The notes: generated by a model not told the origin, from the sequence alone. Positions 10,148 to 22,636 are shown, numbered from the stretch's first letter. The stretch: 33,017 nt of DNA from Alphaproteobacteria bacterium (GCA_019239835.1 JAFAZJ010000154.1:1-33017); one strand, 5' to 3'. Numbers and translations are program-made.

Positions 10148-10755
10148 GATGGCCTCCCTTCGCGGACGGTGTCCTGCGGCGGATCCTCGAAGCCGTGACG
10201 CCAGCCATTGACCAGCTGCTCGACGGCGAACAGCGCGATCAGCGCGCCGGAGATCGGGATCGCGCCGTAGAGCGAGGCGATCGGCGTCATCGAGGGCATG
10301 CGATAGCTGCCGAAGCCGCGCAGGAAATTGACGTAGCCGTACCAGGTGAGGAACAGCCCGACGCCGATGACCACGAGGCGAATCGCGGTCTCGATCGCCA
10401 GGCGCTTGCGGCCATGCATCGATTCGCCGATCGCGGCGAGATAGAGGTGGTCGTTGCGCCGCGTCGCCACCGCGGCACCGATGAAGATGCCGTAGATGAA
10501 GAAGGTCTGCGTCACCTCCTGCAGCCACAGCCACGGCGCCCCGATGGTGCGGGTGACGATGTCGAAGACCACCGAGGTCGAGAAGCCGAGCAGGGTGATG
10601 CCGCAGAGCACCATCAGCACGGCTTCGAGACGATCGAGCGCACGCCACTTGAGGTGGCGCTGGCGGTTGAGCACGAGCGAACGATCCTCATGATCGCCCG
10701 CCGGGTTCGCGTCCGTCGGTTCCGGCAGCGCGGTCAGATTGAACTCTCCTGTCAT
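10144..10755 (-). CDS. dctQ: TRAP transporter small permease (DctQ type); start codon uncertain
   Basis: LDRLEAVLMVLCGITLLGFSTSVVFDIVTRTIGAPWLWLQEVTQTFFIYGIFIGAAVATRRNDHLYL; 4-bp overlap with dctM; ATG at 10755 lies inside a palindromic repeat. Confidence 0.88.
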   Translation of the reverse strand: MTGEFNLTALPEPTDANPAGDHEDRSLVLNRQRHLKWRALDRLEAVLMVLCGITLLGFSTSVVFDIVTRTIGAPWLWLQEVTQTFFIYGIFIGAAVATRRNDHLYLAAIGESMHGRKRLAIETAIRLVVIGVGLFLTWYGYVNFLRGFGSYRMPSMTPIASLYGAIPISGALIALFAVEQLVNGWRHGFEDPPQDTVREGRPS

Positions 10756-10818
10756 TCCGAGCGGAGCGAGGAATCTTTCCGCCGACTCAAGATCCCTCGC
10801 TGCGCTCGGGATGACAGG
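10748..10818. repeat. Long palindromic intergenic repeat, family B copy 2
   Basis: 30-nt arms 10748-10777 (cctgtcattccgagcggagcgaggaatctt) and 10789-10818 (aagatccctcgctgcgctcgggatgacagg), 3 mismatches, 11-nt loop; same family as 6162-6229. Confidence 0.92.
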
Positions 10819-10833
10819 TCGGCGGATCGTGCG

Positions 10834-11841
10834 TTAGCTGACAGCGCTGATCAGCTTCTGGATCTTCGCTGCGTGCGGGCCGAGTTCCTTGGCGAGCTTC
10901 TCGAGATAGGGCTCGGCGATCTTGCTGAAGCCCGATTTGTCGACGTCGGTGACCACCTTCACGCCGATGCCCTTGAGCTTGGTCGCGGACTGGTGCTCGA
11001 GATCGAGCGCCTTGGCCGGTTGCGTGCGGCCGACCTCGTCGGCGGCGGCCTGGACCCAGCCTTTCTGCTCGGCGCTCAGGCTGCTCCACAGTTTGTCGCT
11101 GATCCAGATCAGGCTGTTGTTGGCCTCGTGCTCGGTCATCGACAGCACCGGTGCCACCTCGTAGTGCTTGTTCACGAGGTAGACGTTGACGCCGTTCTCG
11201 GCGACGTCGATCACGCCGGTCTGCAGCGAGGTGTAGACGCTGCCGAAGGGCATGTGCACGGTCTGCGCGCCGTAGGCCGGGAACATCATGTCCTCGGTCG
11301 CGGTGGCCTGCACGCGCACCTTCAGGCCCTTCATGTCCTCGACCTTTTTGATCTCCTTCTTGCTGTACATGTTGCGCAGGCCGAGCGTCGCCAGCGCCAG
11401 CACATGCGCGCCCTGCACGGTCTCGTCGATCATCTCGCGCACCGCCTTGACCACGCCCGGATCGGCCAGCGCCTTGATCAGGTGCTGCTCGGAACGGAAC
11501 AGGAAGTGCAGCGACATCACGCCGGCCTGCGGCGAGAGTGTGGCAGCATTGGCCGAGGCGCTGATGCAGAAATCGATGTCGCCCGACTTCACCAGCTGCA
11601 GCACCTGCGGCTCCTGGCCAAGCTGGGCGCCGGGATACTGGTCGATCAGCATCGCGCCCTTGCTGAGCTCCTTGAGCTTGTCGGAGAAGGTGTTGCCGAT
11701 GATGCCGTAGCCGGTGTTGACCGGCTGGTCGTAGGCGAACTTGAAGCGGCGCGGCGATTGCGCCGACACGCGGCCCGACATCACGAGAGCGGCGGCGGCC
11801 GAGACGGCCGGCAGTTGACGACGACGAAGCGTCCTGGTCAT
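10834..11841 (-). CDS. dctP: TRAP transporter solute-binding protein (DctP type)
   Basis: Signal sequence; FSDKLKELSKGAMLIDQYPGAQLGQEPQVLQLVKSGDIDFCISASANAATLSPQAGVMSLHFLFRSEQH...; KVEDMKGLKVRVQ. Confidence 0.93.
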   Translation of the reverse strand: MTRTLRRRQLPAVSAAAALVMSGRVSAQSPRRFKFAYDQPVNTGYGIIGNTFSDKLKELSKGAMLIDQYPGAQLGQEPQVLQLVKSGDIDFCISASANAATLSPQAGVMSLHFLFRSEQHLIKALADPGVVKAVREMIDETVQGAHVLALATLGLRNMYSKKEIKKVEDMKGLKVRVQATATEDMMFPAYGAQTVHMPFGSVYTSLQTGVIDVAENGVNVYLVNKHYEVAPVLSMTEHEANNSLIWISDKLWSSLSAEQKGWVQAAADEVGRTQPAKALDLEHQSATKLKGIGVKVVTDVDKSGFSKIAEPYLEKLAKELGPHAAKIQKLISAVS

Positions 11842-12051
11842 GGCGTTCTCCCCTGGCTTTGTTTGAGTCGCAGCTTATCCCGTCCAGCGGTCAATGACAG
11901 CGGGGAGTCGGGTGGAACAGGTCATGTGCCTGACCGCCCGCCATTTTGGGAAATTTTGGAATTCTTAATGATCGGTGAAGGTCTTCTTCATGGAAATCCG
12001 CCTGCCGACGTCTATCATCGGCGCCGCCAATCACTGAACGAGGAGGGTGTC

Positions 12052-12711
12052 ATGTCGCTGCAGATCGGACAGAAGGCCCCGGACTTCACTGCCGAGACCA
12101 CTGACGGGAAGATCAGTTTCCACGACTGGATCGGCGATTCCTGGGCGGTGCTGTTCTCGCATCCCAAGGACTTCACGCCGGTATGCACGACCGAGCTAGG
12201 CTACATGGCGCGCATGAAGCCGGAGTTCGACAAGCGCAACACCAAGATCATCGGCCTGTCGGTCGATCCCGTGGCCAACCACGCGAAGTGGGCCAAGGAC
12301 ATCGAGGAAACGCAGGGCACGGCGCCGAACTACCCGATGATCGGCGACACCGACCTTAAGGTCGCCAAGCTCTACAACATGCTGCCTTACGAGACGCCCG
12401 GCTCGTCGGAGGGGCGCACGGCGGCCGACAATGCCACGGTGCGCACGGTGTTCGTGATCGGTCCGGACAAGAACATCCGGCTGATGATTTCCTACCCGAT
12501 GACCACCGGCCGCAACTTCGACGAGATCCTGCGCGTGATCGACTCGATGCAGCTCACCGCCAAGCACCGCGTGGCGACGCCGGTGAACTGGAAGAACGGC
12601 GAGGACGTGATCATCGTGCCGGCCGTCACCGACGAGGAAGCCACAGCGAAATACCCGCAGGGCTTCAAGAAGCTGAAGCCCTACCTGCGCACCGTCGCCC
12701 AACCGAAATAG
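12052..12711 (+). CDS. Peroxiredoxin, 1-Cys (Prx6) type
   Basis: HDWIGDSWAVLFSHPKDFTPVCTTELG catalytic motif; long C-terminal domain with GWRVATPVNWKNGEDVIIVP-type segment; gaggaggg Shine-Dalgarno upstream of ATG 12052. Confidence 0.95.
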   Translation: MSLQIGQKAPDFTAETTDGKISFHDWIGDSWAVLFSHPKDFTPVCTTELGYMARMKPEFDKRNTKIIGLSVDPVANHAKWAKDIEETQGTAPNYPMIGDTDLKVAKLYNMLPYETPGSSEGRTAADNATVRTVFVIGPDKNIRLMISYPMTTGRNFDEILRVIDSMQLTAKHRVATPVNWKNGEDVIIVPAVTDEEATAKYPQGFKKLKPYLRTVAQPK

Positions 12712-12758: not shown

Positions 12759-14249
12759 ATGGCAGCGCGACTCGAGCCGGCACCCGTTTTCACATTGGTG
12801 ATCTTCGGCGCGACGGGCGATCTGACAAAGCGCCTGCTCGTTCCGGCGTTGGTCAATCTTGCGCGCGGCAAATTCCTGCCCAAGGATTTTGCCATCATCG
12901 GCATTGGCCGATCGGCGCTGGATGACGAGACATTCCGCAAGGAACTGGCCGATGGGCTGACGGCGTTTGCGAAACACCCTCGAGGGAGCTCCGATTGGAC
13001 GTGGCTCTCCCGGCGGATCACCTATCTGGGCGGCGATTTCTCCGACCAGAAAACCTATACGGACCTTGCCGCACGCCTCTCGGCGAGAGGTGGTGGCAAT
13101 GTCCTGTTCTATCTGGCGACGCCGCCGAGCGTCTTCTCGATCGTCACGGCCCAGCTCGGCAAGGCGAGTCTCCTGCGCGAAGACGGCAAGCGCTGGCGGC
13201 GTGTCATCGTCGAGAAGCCGTTCGGCACCGATCTGCGATCGGCTCAGGAGCTGAACAAGAAGCTGCTTGCCGATCTATCCGAGCCGCAGATCTATCGGAT
13301 CGACCATTACCTCGGGAAGGAAACGGTCCAGAACATCAACGTGCTGCGGTTCGGCAACGGCCTGTTCGAGCCGCTGTGGAATCGCAACCACATCGATCAT
13401 GTGCAGATCACCGTGGCGGAGACCGTCGGCGTCGAGACGCGCGGATCTTTCTACGATGCCACCGGCGCCTTGCGCGACATGGTTCCGAACCATCTTTTTC
13501 AGCTGCTTGAATTGATCGCCATGGAACCGCCGTCGCGCTTCTCCGCCGACGCCGTCCGGGCGGAAAAGAGCGAGCTTCTCGATGCGGTGCATACGTTCGG
13601 TCACCGGGACGCGATGCGCAACGTGGTGTGCGGCCAGTACGTCGCGGGCAAGGTCGACGGCAAGGCGGTGGCGGCCTATCGCCAATCGAAGAACGTGGCG
13701 CCAGATTCGGCAACGGAGACCTATGTCGCGCTGAAGATCATGATCGACAATTGGCGCTGGGCCGGCGTGCCGTTCTATTTGCGGACCGGCAAGGCGCTGG
13801 GGCGGCGTCGAAGCGAGATCGTGATCCGGTTCAAGCAGGCGCCGTTCGCGATGTTCCGGGAGACGCCGGTCGAGCAGCTCGTGTCGAATGATCTCGTCCT
13901 GCGGCTGCAGCCGGAGGAGAGCATCACGCTGAGCTTCGGCGCCAAGCAACCTGGCCCCAGTATCGTGGTCGACCAGGTCGAGATGCGTTTCGACTACAAG
14001 AATCATTTCGATCTCGTCGCCAGCACCGGATACGAGACGCTGATCTACGATTGCATGACCGGCGACAACACCCTGTTCAAGAGCGCGCAGGAAATCGAGA
14101 CGGGCTGGCGGATCGTGCAACCGGTCCTTGACGCCTGGTCGCGGCGGCGAAGCGCCGTCCCGTTCAGCTACGCGGCAGGTAGCAGTGGCCCCAAGGAAGC
14201 CGACGAGTTGCTGGCACGCGACGGGCGCCAATGGCGGCCCTTCGCGTGA
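12759..14249 (+). CDS. zwf: Glucose-6-phosphate 1-dehydrogenase
   Basis: VIFGATGDLTKRLLVPALVNLARGKFLPKDFAIIGIGR; VEKPFGTD; RIDHYLGKETVQNINVLRFGN active-site signature. Confidence 0.97.
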   Translation: MAARLEPAPVFTLVIFGATGDLTKRLLVPALVNLARGKFLPKDFAIIGIGRSALDDETFRKELADGLTAFAKHPRGSSDWTWLSRRITYLGGDFSDQKTYTDLAARLSARGGGNVLFYLATPPSVFSIVTAQLGKASLLREDGKRWRRVIVEKPFGTDLRSAQELNKKLLADLSEPQIYRIDHYLGKETVQNINVLRFGNGLFEPLWNRNHIDHVQITVAETVGVETRGSFYDATGALRDMVPNHLFQLLELIAMEPPSRFSADAVRAEKSELLDAVHTFGHRDAMRNVVCGQYVAGKVDGKAVAAYRQSKNVAPDSATETYVALKIMIDNWRWAGVPFYLRTGKALGRRRSEIVIRFKQAPFAMFRETPVEQLVSNDLVLRLQPEESITLSFGAKQPGPSIVVDQVEMRFDYKNHFDLVASTGYETLIYDCMTGDNTLFKSAQEIETGWRIVQPVLDAWSRRRSAVPFSYAAGSSGPKEADELLARDGRQWRPFA

Positions 14250-16866: not shown

Positions 16867-17493
16867 ATGACGCCCATCGAACACGCCCAGCTTCGCTTCG
16901 AGCGGCTGACGCCCCAACGGCGCGCCGATCTGATGGTGCTGCTGGGCATCGAACTCGCGAGTCATGCGCGCGCCGCGTTGGCTGCAGCAGAGCCGGACGT
17001 TGTCAGGGCCTGCGGCTTTCTCGACATGCTGCTGGCGTCGCAGAAGACTCCACTGCGGACGATCGGCTCATACTTGTTGCGCGATCCCTTCGTCGAGTCT
17101 GTCGGCACGCTCTTCCAGATGGCTGAGACGCTGGGTGTCGGGTCGGATTTCGAGGTGGCGTGGGACAGGACGTTATCCTTTGTCCGTTCCAGCGCGCTTG
17201 GTCCCGGCGCCAACAGCAACGGCAACGCACTGGCCGGCATCACCAGCCAGGCGAAGGCTCAGATCGCCGCGCGCATTGCGGCGTGGCCGATACCCGCGGG
17301 CGCAACACCGATCCCGCTGGTCTGCATCGACCATGGGCCGGATTTGGCAGGGATGTTTCACGACCGAGTCGAGGTCGAGGATGATCTGTGGACGGCGGAC
17401 GGGATTGAGCTCGTCATCTCACTCGCGAACAACGAGGCACCGCCGCGCGGCAAGACGCTCGACTTCGATGGCGAGCGGTTTGTCCTGATCTGA
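16867..17493 (+). CDS. Hypothetical protein (208 aa)
   Basis: Complete ORF MTPIEHAQLRFERLTPQRRADLMVLLGIELASH...; no family recognised. Confidence 0.65.
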   Translation: MTPIEHAQLRFERLTPQRRADLMVLLGIELASHARAALAAAEPDVVRACGFLDMLLASQKTPLRTIGSYLLRDPFVESVGTLFQMAETLGVGSDFEVAWDRTLSFVRSSALGPGANSNGNALAGITSQAKAQIAARIAAWPIPAGATPIPLVCIDHGPDLAGMFHDRVEVEDDLWTADGIELVISLANNEAPPRGKTLDFDGERFVLI

Positions 17494-17634: not shown

Positions 17635-18852
17635 ATGGCGATTACCGATATCGCGGCGCACGCGGCGGTCACCGCTGACATCGTAACGCCGCGCAGCAAG
17701 CCGAGCCTGTTCAACAAGCCGTTCCTGCCAGCTCTGGCGGCGCGCATCGGCGCCTGGCTCACCGCGCGCCTGGGCTGCGTGATCCGGGTTGGCGACACCG
17801 TGATCGTGGTCCGCCACGCGGATGTTCGCGAGGTTCTCGCGCGCGATCTCGATTTTTGCATCGGCCCGATCAACGCCGCGCGGATCGACGAGGTCAATGG
17901 GCCCTTCATCCTCGGCATGGATCGCGGCCATGTCCTGGACCGTGAACGCGCCACGCTCTACCGCGCCTTCCACCAGGTCGACATGGGCTCGCTGCGCGAT
18001 CAGATACAGGCCGAGGCCAGGAAGCGCGTCGCTGCCGCGGGCAATCGCACGATCGACGCGGTGGGCGATTATGCCCGGCCGATCGCCGCCCAGACCGCGG
18101 TGACGCTGTTCGGCGTGAGCGGCCCCAGCGAGCAGAAGCTGATGGATGTCGCGCGGGCGATCTTCGCGCACACCTTCCTGAACATCGACAATGACGAGGT
18201 CGTGCGCAAACGGGCGGTGGCCGCCGGCAAGATGATGCACGACTGGATCGCCGCGGAAATCGCCCGGCGTCTGACGCTGGCGGAGCCCGGCAACGACCTC
18301 ATGGGGCAGCTGATCCGCCTGCAGCAACCGGTCGATGCCGAGCTGGTCAGGCGGACGCTGGGCGGCATGCTTGTGGGCGCCATCGATACGACGACGAGCT
18401 GCGTCGCCAAGATCATCGCCGTGCTGGGTCGCGATCCCGCGCTGGCCGCGCAGGTCGCGCGCGATGTCGATCAGCCTGATCGGTTGCGTGGCTGGTGCTG
18501 GGAAGCGCTGCGGCGCTGGCCGCACAATCCCGTGGTGCTGCGCCAGGCGTCGGCGGCGACGACGCTGAACGGCCAGGAGATCAGGCAAGGCGATCGCATC
18601 TTCGTCTGGACGCAGGCGGCGATGCTCGACGCGACTGTGTTTCCAGATCCGGCAAGGCTGCGGCCTGACCGACCTCAGGGCAACTACCTGCACTTCGGTG
18701 GTGCGCTGCATGCCTGCGCCGGCCGTGTGGTCAACGGCTTCCAGATCCCCATCCTGGTCGGCGAGCTGGTCAGGCAGGGCATCGTTTCGGTCGGCAAGAT
18801 GGCGTGGGCCGGTCCGTTTCCCGACGAACTTCCCGTGGTGCTGGCCCGATGA
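17635..18852 (+). CDS. Cytochrome P450-like protein
   Basis: I-helix-like GGMLVGAIDTTTSC; ExxR in CWEALRRWPHNPVVLRQA; Cys-ligand loop HFGGALHACAGRVVNGFQI. Confidence 0.88.
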   Translation: MAITDIAAHAAVTADIVTPRSKPSLFNKPFLPALAARIGAWLTARLGCVIRVGDTVIVVRHADVREVLARDLDFCIGPINAARIDEVNGPFILGMDRGHVLDRERATLYRAFHQVDMGSLRDQIQAEARKRVAAAGNRTIDAVGDYARPIAAQTAVTLFGVSGPSEQKLMDVARAIFAHTFLNIDNDEVVRKRAVAAGKMMHDWIAAEIARRLTLAEPGNDLMGQLIRLQQPVDAELVRRTLGGMLVGAIDTTTSCVAKIIAVLGRDPALAAQVARDVDQPDRLRGWCWEALRRWPHNPVVLRQASAATTLNGQEIRQGDRIFVWTQAAMLDATVFPDPARLRPDRPQGNYLHFGGALHACAGRVVNGFQIPILVGELVRQGIVSVGKMAWAGPFPDELPVVLAR

Positions 18853-21800
18853 CCTCGACACCGCAAGCGCTCCTGACGATCATCGCGCCGCTGGCGCTCG
18901 CCCGCCTCGCCGATGCGGAAGCAGAGATCGATCGCCTCGGCAATCCAGCGTCTGGCGACCTCAAGAAGGCCCTGGACGTCATCGATGCCGAAGGCGGGGG
19001 TGGTACGCATTTCGCCAGTCTCCATGCCTTCGCCTCGACCGATGGCGCGAGCGCCTATCTGCTGTTCGAGTTCTCGGCCGATGGAACACAGGAGGCCGCG
19101 CTCGCGCGACTCCTGCGCCAGGACGCGATCAAGAGCGCGTTGCGGCGAATCTTTGTCCTGGCCAGCGACTGGAGCGATGGCGCCGATCTCGCCCAGTACC
19201 TGAAGTCTCACCTGGTTCCGGTCGGCGCGGGATACTGGAGCAATCCCGGCCTGGTTTTCGCCGGTGCGCCGGGTATGTCGGTCGGCCGCATCCGCCAGGA
19301 GCACAATCTCTCCCTGCATCTTGCGGCGCAGTTGGGCCATCAGCACGACGACGTTCCGGCGTTGGCGCGGCTCGCCAGGGTGCGTGCCCAGCTCAAGAAA
19401 GATCCGCAGCTCGCGAAGGCGCTCGAGCCCGCCGACGCCGAGATCCCCTGGAGCCAGGCGTCGGGCCTGTCGGCGGGTCTGGCGGTCGCCGGTGTCGCCG
19501 CGGTCACCTATCTCTGGCCGTTGGCGGCGCTCGTCGTCATCTGCGGCATTGCTACAGGTGTCTGGGACGCGATGTCGAAGCACGGCCTCGAGGCGATCCT
19601 GACGGCATTCGCTGACGGTTTCTGGGACGGGCTTTACGACGCCGGGATCGTCGCCGTCATCGTCATCGTCGTGACGGCGATCGCCGGCCTGCTGATCTTC
19701 CGCGCACGCGAGGCGCGCGACAGTACGGACGAGCGCGCGGCCGATCATCGCCTCAACGCCGCGATGTTCGAGCGTGAGAACCACATCGCGCAGAACCACA
19801 TGATCTCGATCACGCAGCGCAAGCCCGGGATTATCCGCGCCTTCACCTTGCGTGCCGTCTTCCTCGTCATCGGCACCCTGGCCGGCAGGCTGTACCGTCC
19901 GGGCTTCCTGAGCGGCATCGGCACCATCCATTTCGCGCGCTGGGTGACGCCGCCGAAGGGGCAGGATCTCGTCTTCCTGTCGAACTACGATTCGAGCTGG
20001 GAAAGCTATCTCGAGGATTTCATCACGCGCGCGCACGAGGGACTGACCGGCGTGTGGTCGAACACCGTCGGCTTCCCGCGCACCGAGAATCTGATTCAAG
20101 GTGGCGCGACCGACGGCGAGCGATTCAAACGCTACGCGCGGCGCAGCATGATTCCGACGCGCTTCTGGTACTCGGCCTATCCCGAGCTGACGGTCGCGGT
20201 GATCCGCCGCAATGCCACGATCCGCCGTGGTCTGTCGGGCGCGATGACGGAGGATGAAGCCAAGGAATGGCTCGCGCTCTTCGGCTCAGCCAACCGGCCG
20301 GCATCGAGGCTGATGAGCAGCGAGATCCAGAGCCTTGTCTTCGGTGGCATGAAGTTCATGCCCTTCGGTACCTGCCTGGTCTTCCCCGCGCTCGGTGGCA
20401 CGACGGCGGACGCCAAGGCTGGCCTGCGCGCCCTGATGCCGCTGGTGGCCTTCAACGACGGGCGGCTGATCGACCGACCGGCCGTCGTGACGCTTGCCCT
20501 GGGGCCCGGAGCCTTCCGCCGCCTCGGCTTGCGCAAGGACGCGCTCGACAGCTTCCCGTTCGCCTTCCTCGAGGGCATGACTGGCGGTTCGCGCAGCCGG
20601 ATCCTTGGCGACACCGGTGTGAACGGCCCCGAGCATTGGCGTTGGGGCAACACGACGCCCGACCTTGCCATCCTGGTCTATGGCGTGTCGCAGGAAGCCG
20701 TCGATAAGCTAGTCCAGACGGTGAAGGACGAAGCGGCTGTCGCGAACATGGCCGCGCCACACGCGATCGCGCTGACCGAGCTTACGAGCGACAAGCGGGA
20801 GCCCTTTGGTTTCATGGACGGCGCGTCGCAGCCGGTGATCCGCGGGACCTACAAGGGCTTGCGCAACGTCGATCCGATCCACCTCGTCGAGCCCGGCGAG
20901 TTCGTGCTGGGTTATCCCGACAATCGCGGCAATCTCCCGCCGGGTCCCGTGCTGGGCCCGCTCGACGACCCCGATAACATGCTGCCGCTGGTCGGCGGCC
21001 AGCACGGCTTCGACGAGAGCCGCGTCGATAACGTGCGCGACCTTGGTTTCAACGGCAGCTTCCTCGTCATCCGCGAGCTCGAGCAGGACGTCGCCGCATT
21101 CGAGACCTATTGCCGTGGTGAGGCGGCCAAGCTCGTCGACCGATTGCCGGCGCCCTATGTCGTCAACGAGGAGTTCATCGGCGCCAAGCTGATCGGACGC
21201 TGGAAGGACGGCTCGAGCCTCGTGCGCCACCCCTATGAATCGGAAACGACGGGACGCGCGCGGCGGCGCACGCACACCATGTCCAGACCGAAGGCCGCGC
21301 CCGACGCGGGCAAGCCGCCCATCGAACCGCCGCCCGACCCCAAGCACATCGAGGACAAGGCGGCACCGCAAATCGTGACGTCGAAGGTGGAGCAGCCGAC
21401 CGAGCCACCCCGGTATTATGGCGACAACGACTTCCTGTTCGGGACCGAGGATCCGGAGGGCATCCGTTGCCCTTATGGCGCGCATATCCGCCGGGCCAAT
21501 CCGCGTGACAGCCAGGACCCCGGTTCCGCCGATCAGATCGCGATCTCGAACCGACACCGGATCATGCGCGTCGGACGACGCTACGAGCCGGTCGACGGCG
21601 GCAACCCAGGCCTGCTGTTCATGTGCCTCAACGGCGACATCGAGCGGCAGTTCGAGTTCGTGCAGCAGACGTGGCTGCGCAGCCCGTCCTTCCACGGCCT
21701 GTCCTGCGAGAAGGATCCGGTGCTGGGCGATGCCGAAACCGGCGTGTGCAATTTCACCATTCCCAGCCGCAACGGCCCGGTCTCACTCTCGCCGCTGCCG

Positions 21801-21881
21801 AGGTTCGTCACCACCAAGGGTGGCGGCTATTTCTTCCTGCCCGGCAAGCGGCTGCTTGAATACCTGGCCCGGCCCGCATGA
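18849..21881 (+). CDS. Very large DyP-type (dye-decolourising) peroxidase fusion with N-terminal membrane-spanning and ferredoxin-like regions (~1010 aa)
   Basis: C-terminal DyP hallmarks: EPFGFMDGASQPVIRG (GxxDG), GIRCPYGAHIRRANPRDSQ, RHRIMRVGRRYEP; hydrophobic helices in SAGLAVAGVAAVTYLWPLAALVVICGIATGV and AGIVAVIVIVVTAIAGLLIF; ATGA overlap with the P450 stop. Confidence 0.88.
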   Translation: MTSTPQALLTIIAPLALARLADAEAEIDRLGNPASGDLKKALDVIDAEGGGGTHFASLHAFASTDGASAYLLFEFSADGTQEAALARLLRQDAIKSALRRIFVLASDWSDGADLAQYLKSHLVPVGAGYWSNPGLVFAGAPGMSVGRIRQEHNLSLHLAAQLGHQHDDVPALARLARVRAQLKKDPQLAKALEPADAEIPWSQASGLSAGLAVAGVAAVTYLWPLAALVVICGIATGVWDAMSKHGLEAILTAFADGFWDGLYDAGIVAVIVIVVTAIAGLLIFRAREARDSTDERAADHRLNAAMFERENHIAQNHMISITQRKPGIIRAFTLRAVFLVIGTLAGRLYRPGFLSGIGTIHFARWVTPPKGQDLVFLSNYDSSWESYLEDFITRAHEGLTGVWSNTVGFPRTENLIQGGATDGERFKRYARRSMIPTRFWYSAYPELTVAVIRRNATIRRGLSGAMTEDEAKEWLALFGSANRPASRLMSSEIQSLVFGGMKFMPFGTCLVFPALGGTTADAKAGLRALMPLVAFNDGRLIDRPAVVTLALGPGAFRRLGLRKDALDSFPFAFLEGMTGGSRSRILGDTGVNGPEHWRWGNTTPDLAILVYGVSQEAVDKLVQTVKDEAAVANMAAPHAIALTELTSDKREPFGFMDGASQPVIRGTYKGLRNVDPIHLVEPGEFVLGYPDNRGNLPPGPVLGPLDDPDNMLPLVGGQHGFDESRVDNVRDLGFNGSFLVIRELEQDVAAFETYCRGEAAKLVDRLPAPYVVNEEFIGAKLIGRWKDGSSLVRHPYESETTGRARRRTHTMSRPKAAPDAGKPPIEPPPDPKHIEDKAAPQIVTSKVEQPTEPPRYYGDNDFLFGTEDPEGIRCPYGAHIRRANPRDSQDPGSADQIAISNRHRIMRVGRRYEPVDGGNPGLLFMCLNGDIERQFEFVQQTWLRSPSFHGLSCEKDPVLGDAETGVCNFTIPSRNGPVSLSPLPRFVTTKGGGYFFLPGKRLLEYLARPA

Positions 21882-22636
21882 CCGGCAAGACGCCCGAGCT
21901 GCTGACATTCGCGCCCATGATCGACAGCGAGTTGGCGCGGCAGCTGCTGCGCCACTATGGCGTGGCCTATAGCGAGGACGATCATCTGTTCGGCTGGGTC
22001 TCGCTGCTGACCATGCGCAACGGCGGCTTCCTGCAGGTGCCCATGCTGCATGGCGGCGGCGTGCGTCTCGATGGCCCGCGCGAGATCGCCGAGCACTACG
22101 ATCCGACGATGCCTGCCGACAAACGCCTGTTTCCGCCCGAGCAGCCGCTGCGTACGGCAATCGATGCGGATTGGGAGCGCTACAACGGATCGCTCGCCGG
22201 CGATAGCGCCGCCGTCAGCTACTTCTACATGCTGCCGGAACGCAGCGTCATGGTCCCGCTGTTCCAGCGCTCGCTGAAGCCGGGCGAGGCGCGAATCGTT
22301 CCGGCCGTCTATGGCGCGCTTCGCTGGCTGTTCAAGGTTTTGCTGGGGCTCGAGCAGGCGAAGATCGACGACGCAGTGTTGCGCATCCGCATGGCCTTCG
22401 ATGCGACGGACCAGCGTATCGCCGATGGCCGACCATTCCTTGCCGGCGATCGTCTTACGCTTGGCGACGTCGCCCTGGCGACCGCCACGGCGCCACTGCT
22501 GCTGCCCGCCGGATATATTGCACCGGTGCCTGTCTATGGCCAGATGCCGACCGCGCTACGGGCGATCGTGGACGAGCTACGCGCGCGTCCGACCGCCTCG
22601 TTCGTCTCTCGGCTCTACGCCGGCTGGATCGGATAG
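21878..22636 (+). CDS. Glutathione S-transferase-fold protein
   Basis: LLTFAPMIDSELARQLLRHYGVAYSEDDH...LQVPMLHGGGVRLDGPREIAEHYD (thioredoxin-like N-domain with cis-Pro type VPML), ...GRPFLAGDRLTLGDVALATATAPLLLP (GST C-domain signature); ATGA overlap with the upstream gene. Confidence 0.85.
   Translation: MTGKTPELLTFAPMIDSELARQLLRHYGVAYSEDDHLFGWVSLLTMRNGGFLQVPMLHGGGVRLDGPREIAEHYDPTMPADKRLFPPEQPLRTAIDADWERYNGSLAGDSAAVSYFYMLPERSVMVPLFQRSLKPGEARIVPAVYGALRWLFKVLLGLEQAKIDDAVLRIRMAFDATDQRIADGRPFLAGDRLTLGDVALATATAPLLLPAGYIAPVPVYGQMPTALRAIVDELRARPTASFVSRLYAGWIG

Follow-up and report, generated by a model that had tools for sequence, protein, structure and literature searches.

Do a cytochrome P450, a giant DyP peroxidase and a GST-fold protein encoded side by side in an alphaproteobacterium work as one enzyme system and, if so, on what kind of substrate? 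The three genes occupy positions 17635 to 22636 on the plus strand of a 33,017-nucleotide stretch from Alphaproteobacteria bacterium (GCA_019239835.1 JAFAZJ010000154.1:1-33017), hereafter the window, and an earlier note on this DNA had proposed that they form a membrane-associated oxidative module. DyP peroxidases are abundant in bacteria and, to our knowledge, their natural substrates are mostly unknown. We found that P450 and DyP stay together, and are frequently fused, in a wide range of bacteria. The P450-DyP(-GST) functional unit is almost certainly real, and the partnership of the three enzymes is apparently undescribed.

Conservation of the P450-DyP pair

The related loci comprise the best 80 of 154 relatives, from nine phyla, and represent a sample of best hits rather than a random one. 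Of these 80 loci, 54 have a P450 fused to the DyP or no more than 1.8 kb away from it; the outer flanks, with 3.6 times as much DNA, contain one (0.203 P450s per kb near DyP versus 0.0011 far from it). In 25 loci the P450 forms the N-terminal part of a single P450-DyP protein of ~1,400 amino acids (aa), and because this arrangement is found in many relatives the two enzymes most likely work side by side, co-operating on one substrate. Moreover, P450 and DyP distances are correlated (r = 0.71 for 26 separate pairs and 0.84 for 19 fused ones; p 0.0002), although part of this correlation is owed to shared ancestry. Neighbourhood, gene fusion and correlated divergence thus all bear out the earlier proposal of a P450-DyP unit. 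The search of gene neighbourhoods around the ~1010-aa protein, which that note had recommended, also brought exceptions: DyP orthologues of Roseibium, Anderseniella, Ensifer and Rhizobium (loci L007, L008, L009, L011 and L111) have neither P450 nor GST nearby. L111 is surrounded by nucleases, a CHAT protein and a DpnII-type restriction system, and L009 has an endonuclease-family gene. Remoter DyP-accessory loci with a P450 (L091, L092, L093 and L104) come from further genomes that belong to the family or class of the window.

In an unrooted tree of the DyP proteins, the window falls in a clade of eight rows (support 99) in which the GST takes three different positions. The make-up of this clade, with Phenylobacterium, Caulobacteraceae, Sphingomonas, Rhodospirillum and Acidobacteria metagenome-assembled genomes (MAGs), suggests horizontal transfer, although errors in MAG binning could contribute. 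Few genomes carry the giant module: among 288 sampled across the class, 5 match at E <= 1e-60, and in just two of them does the match span the whole giant protein.

A class III nucleotide cyclase gene is found near 24 of the 80 loci and farther away in 9, and a Crp/Fnr gene in about 25. Many P450-DyP fusions (among L012-L063) are flanked by such a cyclase (with TPR or AAA_16) and a Crp/Fnr regulator, with no GST. In the window's own family, the cyclase gene is directly upstream of the fusions examined in L144-L150. Cyclase and regulator possibly represent a cyclic-nucleotide control module.

Current annotations call the fused proteins no more than 'cytochrome P450', 'Dyp-type peroxidase domain-containing protein' or 'hypothetical protein'. 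The open-access literature that we searched does not describe any P450-DyP fusion, a provisional result because the searches covered neither subscription papers nor preprints. A survey of alphaproteobacterial P450s (PMC8197338) says nothing in its main text about a fusion or a peroxidase.

Layout of the three genes

The P450 gene (405 aa, 17635..18852) matches Pfam PF00067 (p450; E 9.8e-14). It is followed by the gene for the giant DyP protein (1010 aa, 18849..21881), recognized as an open reading frame (ORF) and by NCBIfam and a PDB profile search, and by the gene for the GST-fold protein (252 aa, 21878..22636), which matches PF13410 (GST_C_2) above cut-off (E 8.3e-06). Since homologues of all three exist in other genomes, these are real genes. 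As had been claimed, all lie on the plus strand and consecutive genes share an ATGA stop/start overlap, read in the sequence as ...cccgATGAcc (18849..18852) and ...gcATGAcc (21878..21881). Four-nucleotide gene overlaps are frequent and have little meaning by themselves. However, the P450 and DyP genes also share an RTGA overlap in L002, L003, L004, L005, L014 and L017, and a DyP/GST overlap occurs again in L006 and L004. No conspicuous Shine-Dalgarno-like run precedes the start codons of the DyP and GST genes, which would fit coupled translation. Scans for sigma-70 promoters and terminators gave no site 5' of the P450 on its strand, and their totals are close to the shuffled expectation. The trio stands alone. 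On its upstream side a gap of ~140 nt precedes it, beyond which lies a hypothetical gene unrelated to it, and 11 nt past its downstream end a convergent gene for an ABC transporter ends. The layout is that of a single operon.

The giant protein: a divergent DyP domain and a duplicated N-terminal domain

The AlphaFold2 model of the 1010-aa protein (mean pLDDT 84.5) presents two alpha+beta domains flanking a long helical hairpin, with the DyP domain last (residues 486-1010; 20304..21878, plus strand, as are all features below). The DyP assignment is settled because a PDB profile search (E 9.9e-78) and the top Foldseek match (8re3, E 7.9e-29, TM 0.83 on target) both give DrDyP, and by its fold this half is a class-V-like DyP. 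The NCBIfam model Dyp_perox_fam matches residues 597-1000 (E 3.3e-19) under its curated cut-off (69.4 versus 100.5 bits), which is a score threshold and no structural feature, and by this model the domain is a divergent member of the family. At the sequence level the catalytic residues are intact. These include the GXXDG distal motif, here GFMDG (residues 654-658; 20808..20822), of which G654, D657 and G658 are invariant in 46 sequences. The proximal haem histidine H879, in CPYGAHIRR (21468..21494), is invariant in 46 relatives, as are H903, R904 and R907 in RHRIMR (21552..21569), R907 being assigned by motif as the distal arginine. DrDyP (Deinococcus DR_A0145, 8re2/8re3; class C/V) is thus the nearest solved relative in both sequence and fold. 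However, it is a single DyP without tandem or P450, and M replaces the last G of its GXXDG motif, which the window protein keeps.

The earlier note had described the giant protein as a DyP fusion and left its N-terminal half unresolved; while the DyP half is confirmed, the other half turns out to be a new, undescribed duplicated domain. It consists of a first ABM-like repeat (residues 1-200; 18849..19448), recognized by AlphaFold2 and Foldseek, a hairpin, and a second ABM-like repeat (residues 300-480; 19746..20288). The second repeat is the best-conserved part of the protein besides the DyP domain, with HFARW and NYDSSWESYLEDF motifs and the residues G352, A363, W365, Y387, F391, G398, G419 and K427 invariant in 52 sequences. 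Neither repeat has a match in Pfam, including its ABM families. When residues 1-489 are modelled separately (pLDDT 91.6), the best Foldseek match is the ABM/SchA-like protein WhiE-ORFI (9lmn), which is weak (E 1.2e-3, TM 0.46, 8% identity), with IsdG and Rv0793 weaker still; this suggests an ABM-type alpha+beta barrel, weakly matched. Unlike the giant protein, WhiE-ORFI has no fusion to DyP or P450.

An iterated profile of the second repeat picks up the first one, and a profile-profile comparison aligns their HFA motifs with p 0.003, yet with a probability of 10% only. The evidence that the two repeats are related is moderate, because profile iteration can draw in the first repeat. Homology of the tandem to the DyP domain found no profile support and was discarded.

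The hairpin (19464..19718), visible in both hydropathy and the model helices, has hydrophobic segments at residues 216-234 and 266-284. Its conservation supports the membrane association claimed earlier, and we lean towards it anchoring the giant protein in the inner membrane.

The P450 and the GST-linked variant

Among solved structures, MycG and other macrolide-type P450s of bacteria come closest to the window P450 (E ~1e-15). The window protein has the ExxR motif as EALR and the haem-thiolate cysteine loop FGGALHACAG (residues 354-363; 18694..18723), and its I-helix carries GAIDTT (residues 248-253; 18376..18393), the acid-alcohol pair of conventional monooxygenases. In an alignment of 63 P450 partners, this Asp-Thr pair is kept in all ten aligned GST-linked P450s and is changed to Pro-Thr or lost in nearly all non-GST ones. 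The I-helix Asp is replaced by Pro in the cyclase-linked P450-DyP fusions, and in the Novosphingobium partners (L028-L045, L075) the acid/alcohol pair is gone together with part of the Cys loop, the Cys itself being kept. Loss of the acid-alcohol pair is known from P450s that use peroxides. Given this loss, the fused P450s may be peroxide-driven, and the window P450 reductase-driven. The association between GST and Asp-Thr looks strong by counts (Fisher 4e-9); nonetheless, each trait changed only four times on the tree, with at most two supported independent pairs, and we therefore do not claim it as independent evidence.

The GST protein has the GST fold, with a cis-Pro VP motif at residues 54-55 and, in the C-terminal LTLGD box, the N-capping box; P55 and D197 do not vary among 10 GSTs of the module. 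The window copy lacks the SP motif that the fused GSTs have. A GST adjoins the module or is fused to it in 10 of the 80 loci, from three parts of the DyP tree, and in none of the outer flanks. It is downstream as in the window in L004, L006 and L064, divergent upstream in L002 and L010, and fused in front of the P450, through a linker of ~40 residues, in L003, L005, L014, L017 and L064; both Pfam domains were confirmed within a single ORF for L003 and L005. L074 resembles a GST-P450 fusion split by a frameshift. The third member proposed in the earlier note is thus recurrent without being a general partner. Since some genomes carry relatives of the window GST with neither a P450 nor a DyP closer than about 1.5 kb, this GST was probably recruited to the module.

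Distant architectures and their lipid context

In distant relatives, the part that corresponds to the second ABM-like repeat is a separate ~200-aa 'hypothetical protein', which occurs singly next to a DyP and near catalase-family and lipid genes. Granulicella has two such small proteins plus a DyP, with katG near the module. In Cyanobacteria, Armatimonadota, Acidobacteria and others, a DyP is accompanied by a duplicated ~450-aa protein, and Alphaproteobacteria have the fused giant, with the P450 separate or fused too. This series reads as the stepwise fusion of a working set, its direction being unproven on an unrooted tree.

Five distant loci include a gene of the animal-peroxidase family, and the three that were compared are all alpha-dioxygenase (alpha-DOX)-like: the L056 protein matches rice alpha-DOX over its full length (E 2e-124), and those of L067 and L076 match alpha-DOX at 1e-57 and 1e-56. 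The product of alpha-DOX is 2-hydroperoxy fatty acids (PMC8720084). In L076 one strand carries, in order, the alpha-DOX-like gene, a P450, a short ORF without assigned family, the tandem protein, the DyP and a catalase-like gene. Divergent catalase-like proteins recur next to a DyP and its small partner in L056, L067, L068, L069, L071, L073, L076, L079, L081, L116, L117, L118 and L121. They need not be catalases, because the two tested are too divergent in sequence for any PDB match. Genes for oleate hydratase, 3-hydroxyacyl-CoA dehydrogenase, thioesterase and catalase-family proteins lie near modules of Agrobacterium, Roseomonas and partly Acinetobacter.

Other genes of the window

The gene upstream of the trio (16867-17493) has no family match in Pfam and no relative among the related loci. 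We rejected a role in anti-phage defence, as PADLOC gave no match for the four proteins tested. An '838-aa fusion' of peroxiredoxin (10195-12711, plus strand) was also discarded, its start having been called too far upstream; the true 1-Cys Prx starts near 12055 and is followed by a glucose-6-phosphate dehydrogenase gene (12759-14249).

A possible function in fatty-acyl oxidation

On balance, we prefer to explain the operon as encoding a membrane-anchored oxidative complex that acts on a fatty-acyl or otherwise hydrophobic compound and its hydroperoxide. The large protein would sit in the inner membrane through its hydrophobic hairpin, and the P450 would oxygenate or rearrange the compound. 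With H2O2 or an organic peroxide, the DyP would then carry the oxidation of the compound further, leaving the GST to conjugate, reduce or isomerise the electrophilic product. A lipid hydroperoxide is the leading candidate for the substrate, for which we regard the case as evenly balanced.

The earlier note had drawn an analogy with the fungal linoleate diol synthases, or Ppo enzymes (reviewed in PMC13049297), which are di-haem fusions of a dioxygenase and a P450. Like these, the fused relatives of the window combine a haem peroxidase-type domain and a P450 in one protein, and the analogy gains weight because real fatty-acid alpha-dioxygenases adjoin distant DyP modules, although none stands beside the window operon. 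However, no cyclooxygenase-like haem dioxygenase domain is fused to the P450: the peroxidase has the DyP fold, where Ppo has that of cyclooxygenase and animal peroxidases. The order is also P450 then peroxidase, and an ABM-like tandem and a membrane hairpin are added. By analogy, it may work like a Ppo yet is not one. The Nostoc linoleate 10S-dioxygenase with its catalase-related hydroperoxide lyase (cited in PMC13049297) resembles L056, L067, L076 and L079 in that a haem dioxygenase adjoins a divergent catalase-like protein; in these loci a DyP and an ABM-like protein are added and the dioxygenase is of alpha-DOX type in the three tested.

Several observations weigh against the complex proposed here. 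DrDyP, the nearest solved DyP, is inactive at physiological pH (PMC10820274), so peroxidase activity of the window DyP cannot be assumed. With its Asp-Thr pair, the window P450 resembles ordinary O2/reductase-dependent P450s and so need not use peroxide, and no redox partner gene lies near the trio. Most relatives of the module lack a GST. Lastly, no lipid genes stand beside the window trio and none were noted in its clade, the lipid context coming only from distant relatives with a split DyP.

Among other explanations, the tailoring of a specialised metabolite is unlikely but fares best. Here the P450 would hydroxylate and the DyP radically oxidise an aromatic, polyketide or terpenoid compound, the ABM-like tandem being a further oxygenase or a substrate binder and the GST conjugating the product. 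This would agree with the ABM/SchA-like polyketide-pathway proteins being the top fold matches of the N-terminal half and with macrolide-tailoring P450s being closest to the P450, but the fold match is weak, and the trio is a short stand-alone set without polyketide, terpene or transport genes alongside. Still less likely is a role in peroxide defence, in which the DyP would clear H2O2 or organic peroxides that leak out of membranes or an uncoupled P450, and the GST would clear electrophiles. Such a role would account for the catalase-like neighbours of DyP in distant relatives, the katG of Granulicella and the GST of the window; however, it leaves the P450-DyP fusion and co-variation unexplained, and so patchy a distribution in the class would be odd for general defence. 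Finally, a signal-making module, with the P450-DyP product as regulatory molecule, the cyclase and Crp/Fnr of related loci as sensor and effector and the window as a GST variant, is improbable despite the recurrence of these genes, as the window has neither of them and the I-helix of cyclase-linked P450s differs.

Returning to the membrane-anchored oxidative complex, we tentatively propose a new family of bacterial di-haem enzymes, in which P450 and DyP are bridged by a membrane-anchored ABM-like tandem. This family might do in bacteria what the dioxygenase-P450 oxylipin synthases do in fungi, and the window operon would be its split, GST-equipped version. The recurrent P450-DyP fusion provides a direct handle on DyP function, which the P450 and the neighbouring genes narrow down. 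If the substrate is indeed a lipid hydroperoxide, these bacteria would possess an oxylipin route built on a peroxidase fold other than the fungal and animal ones.

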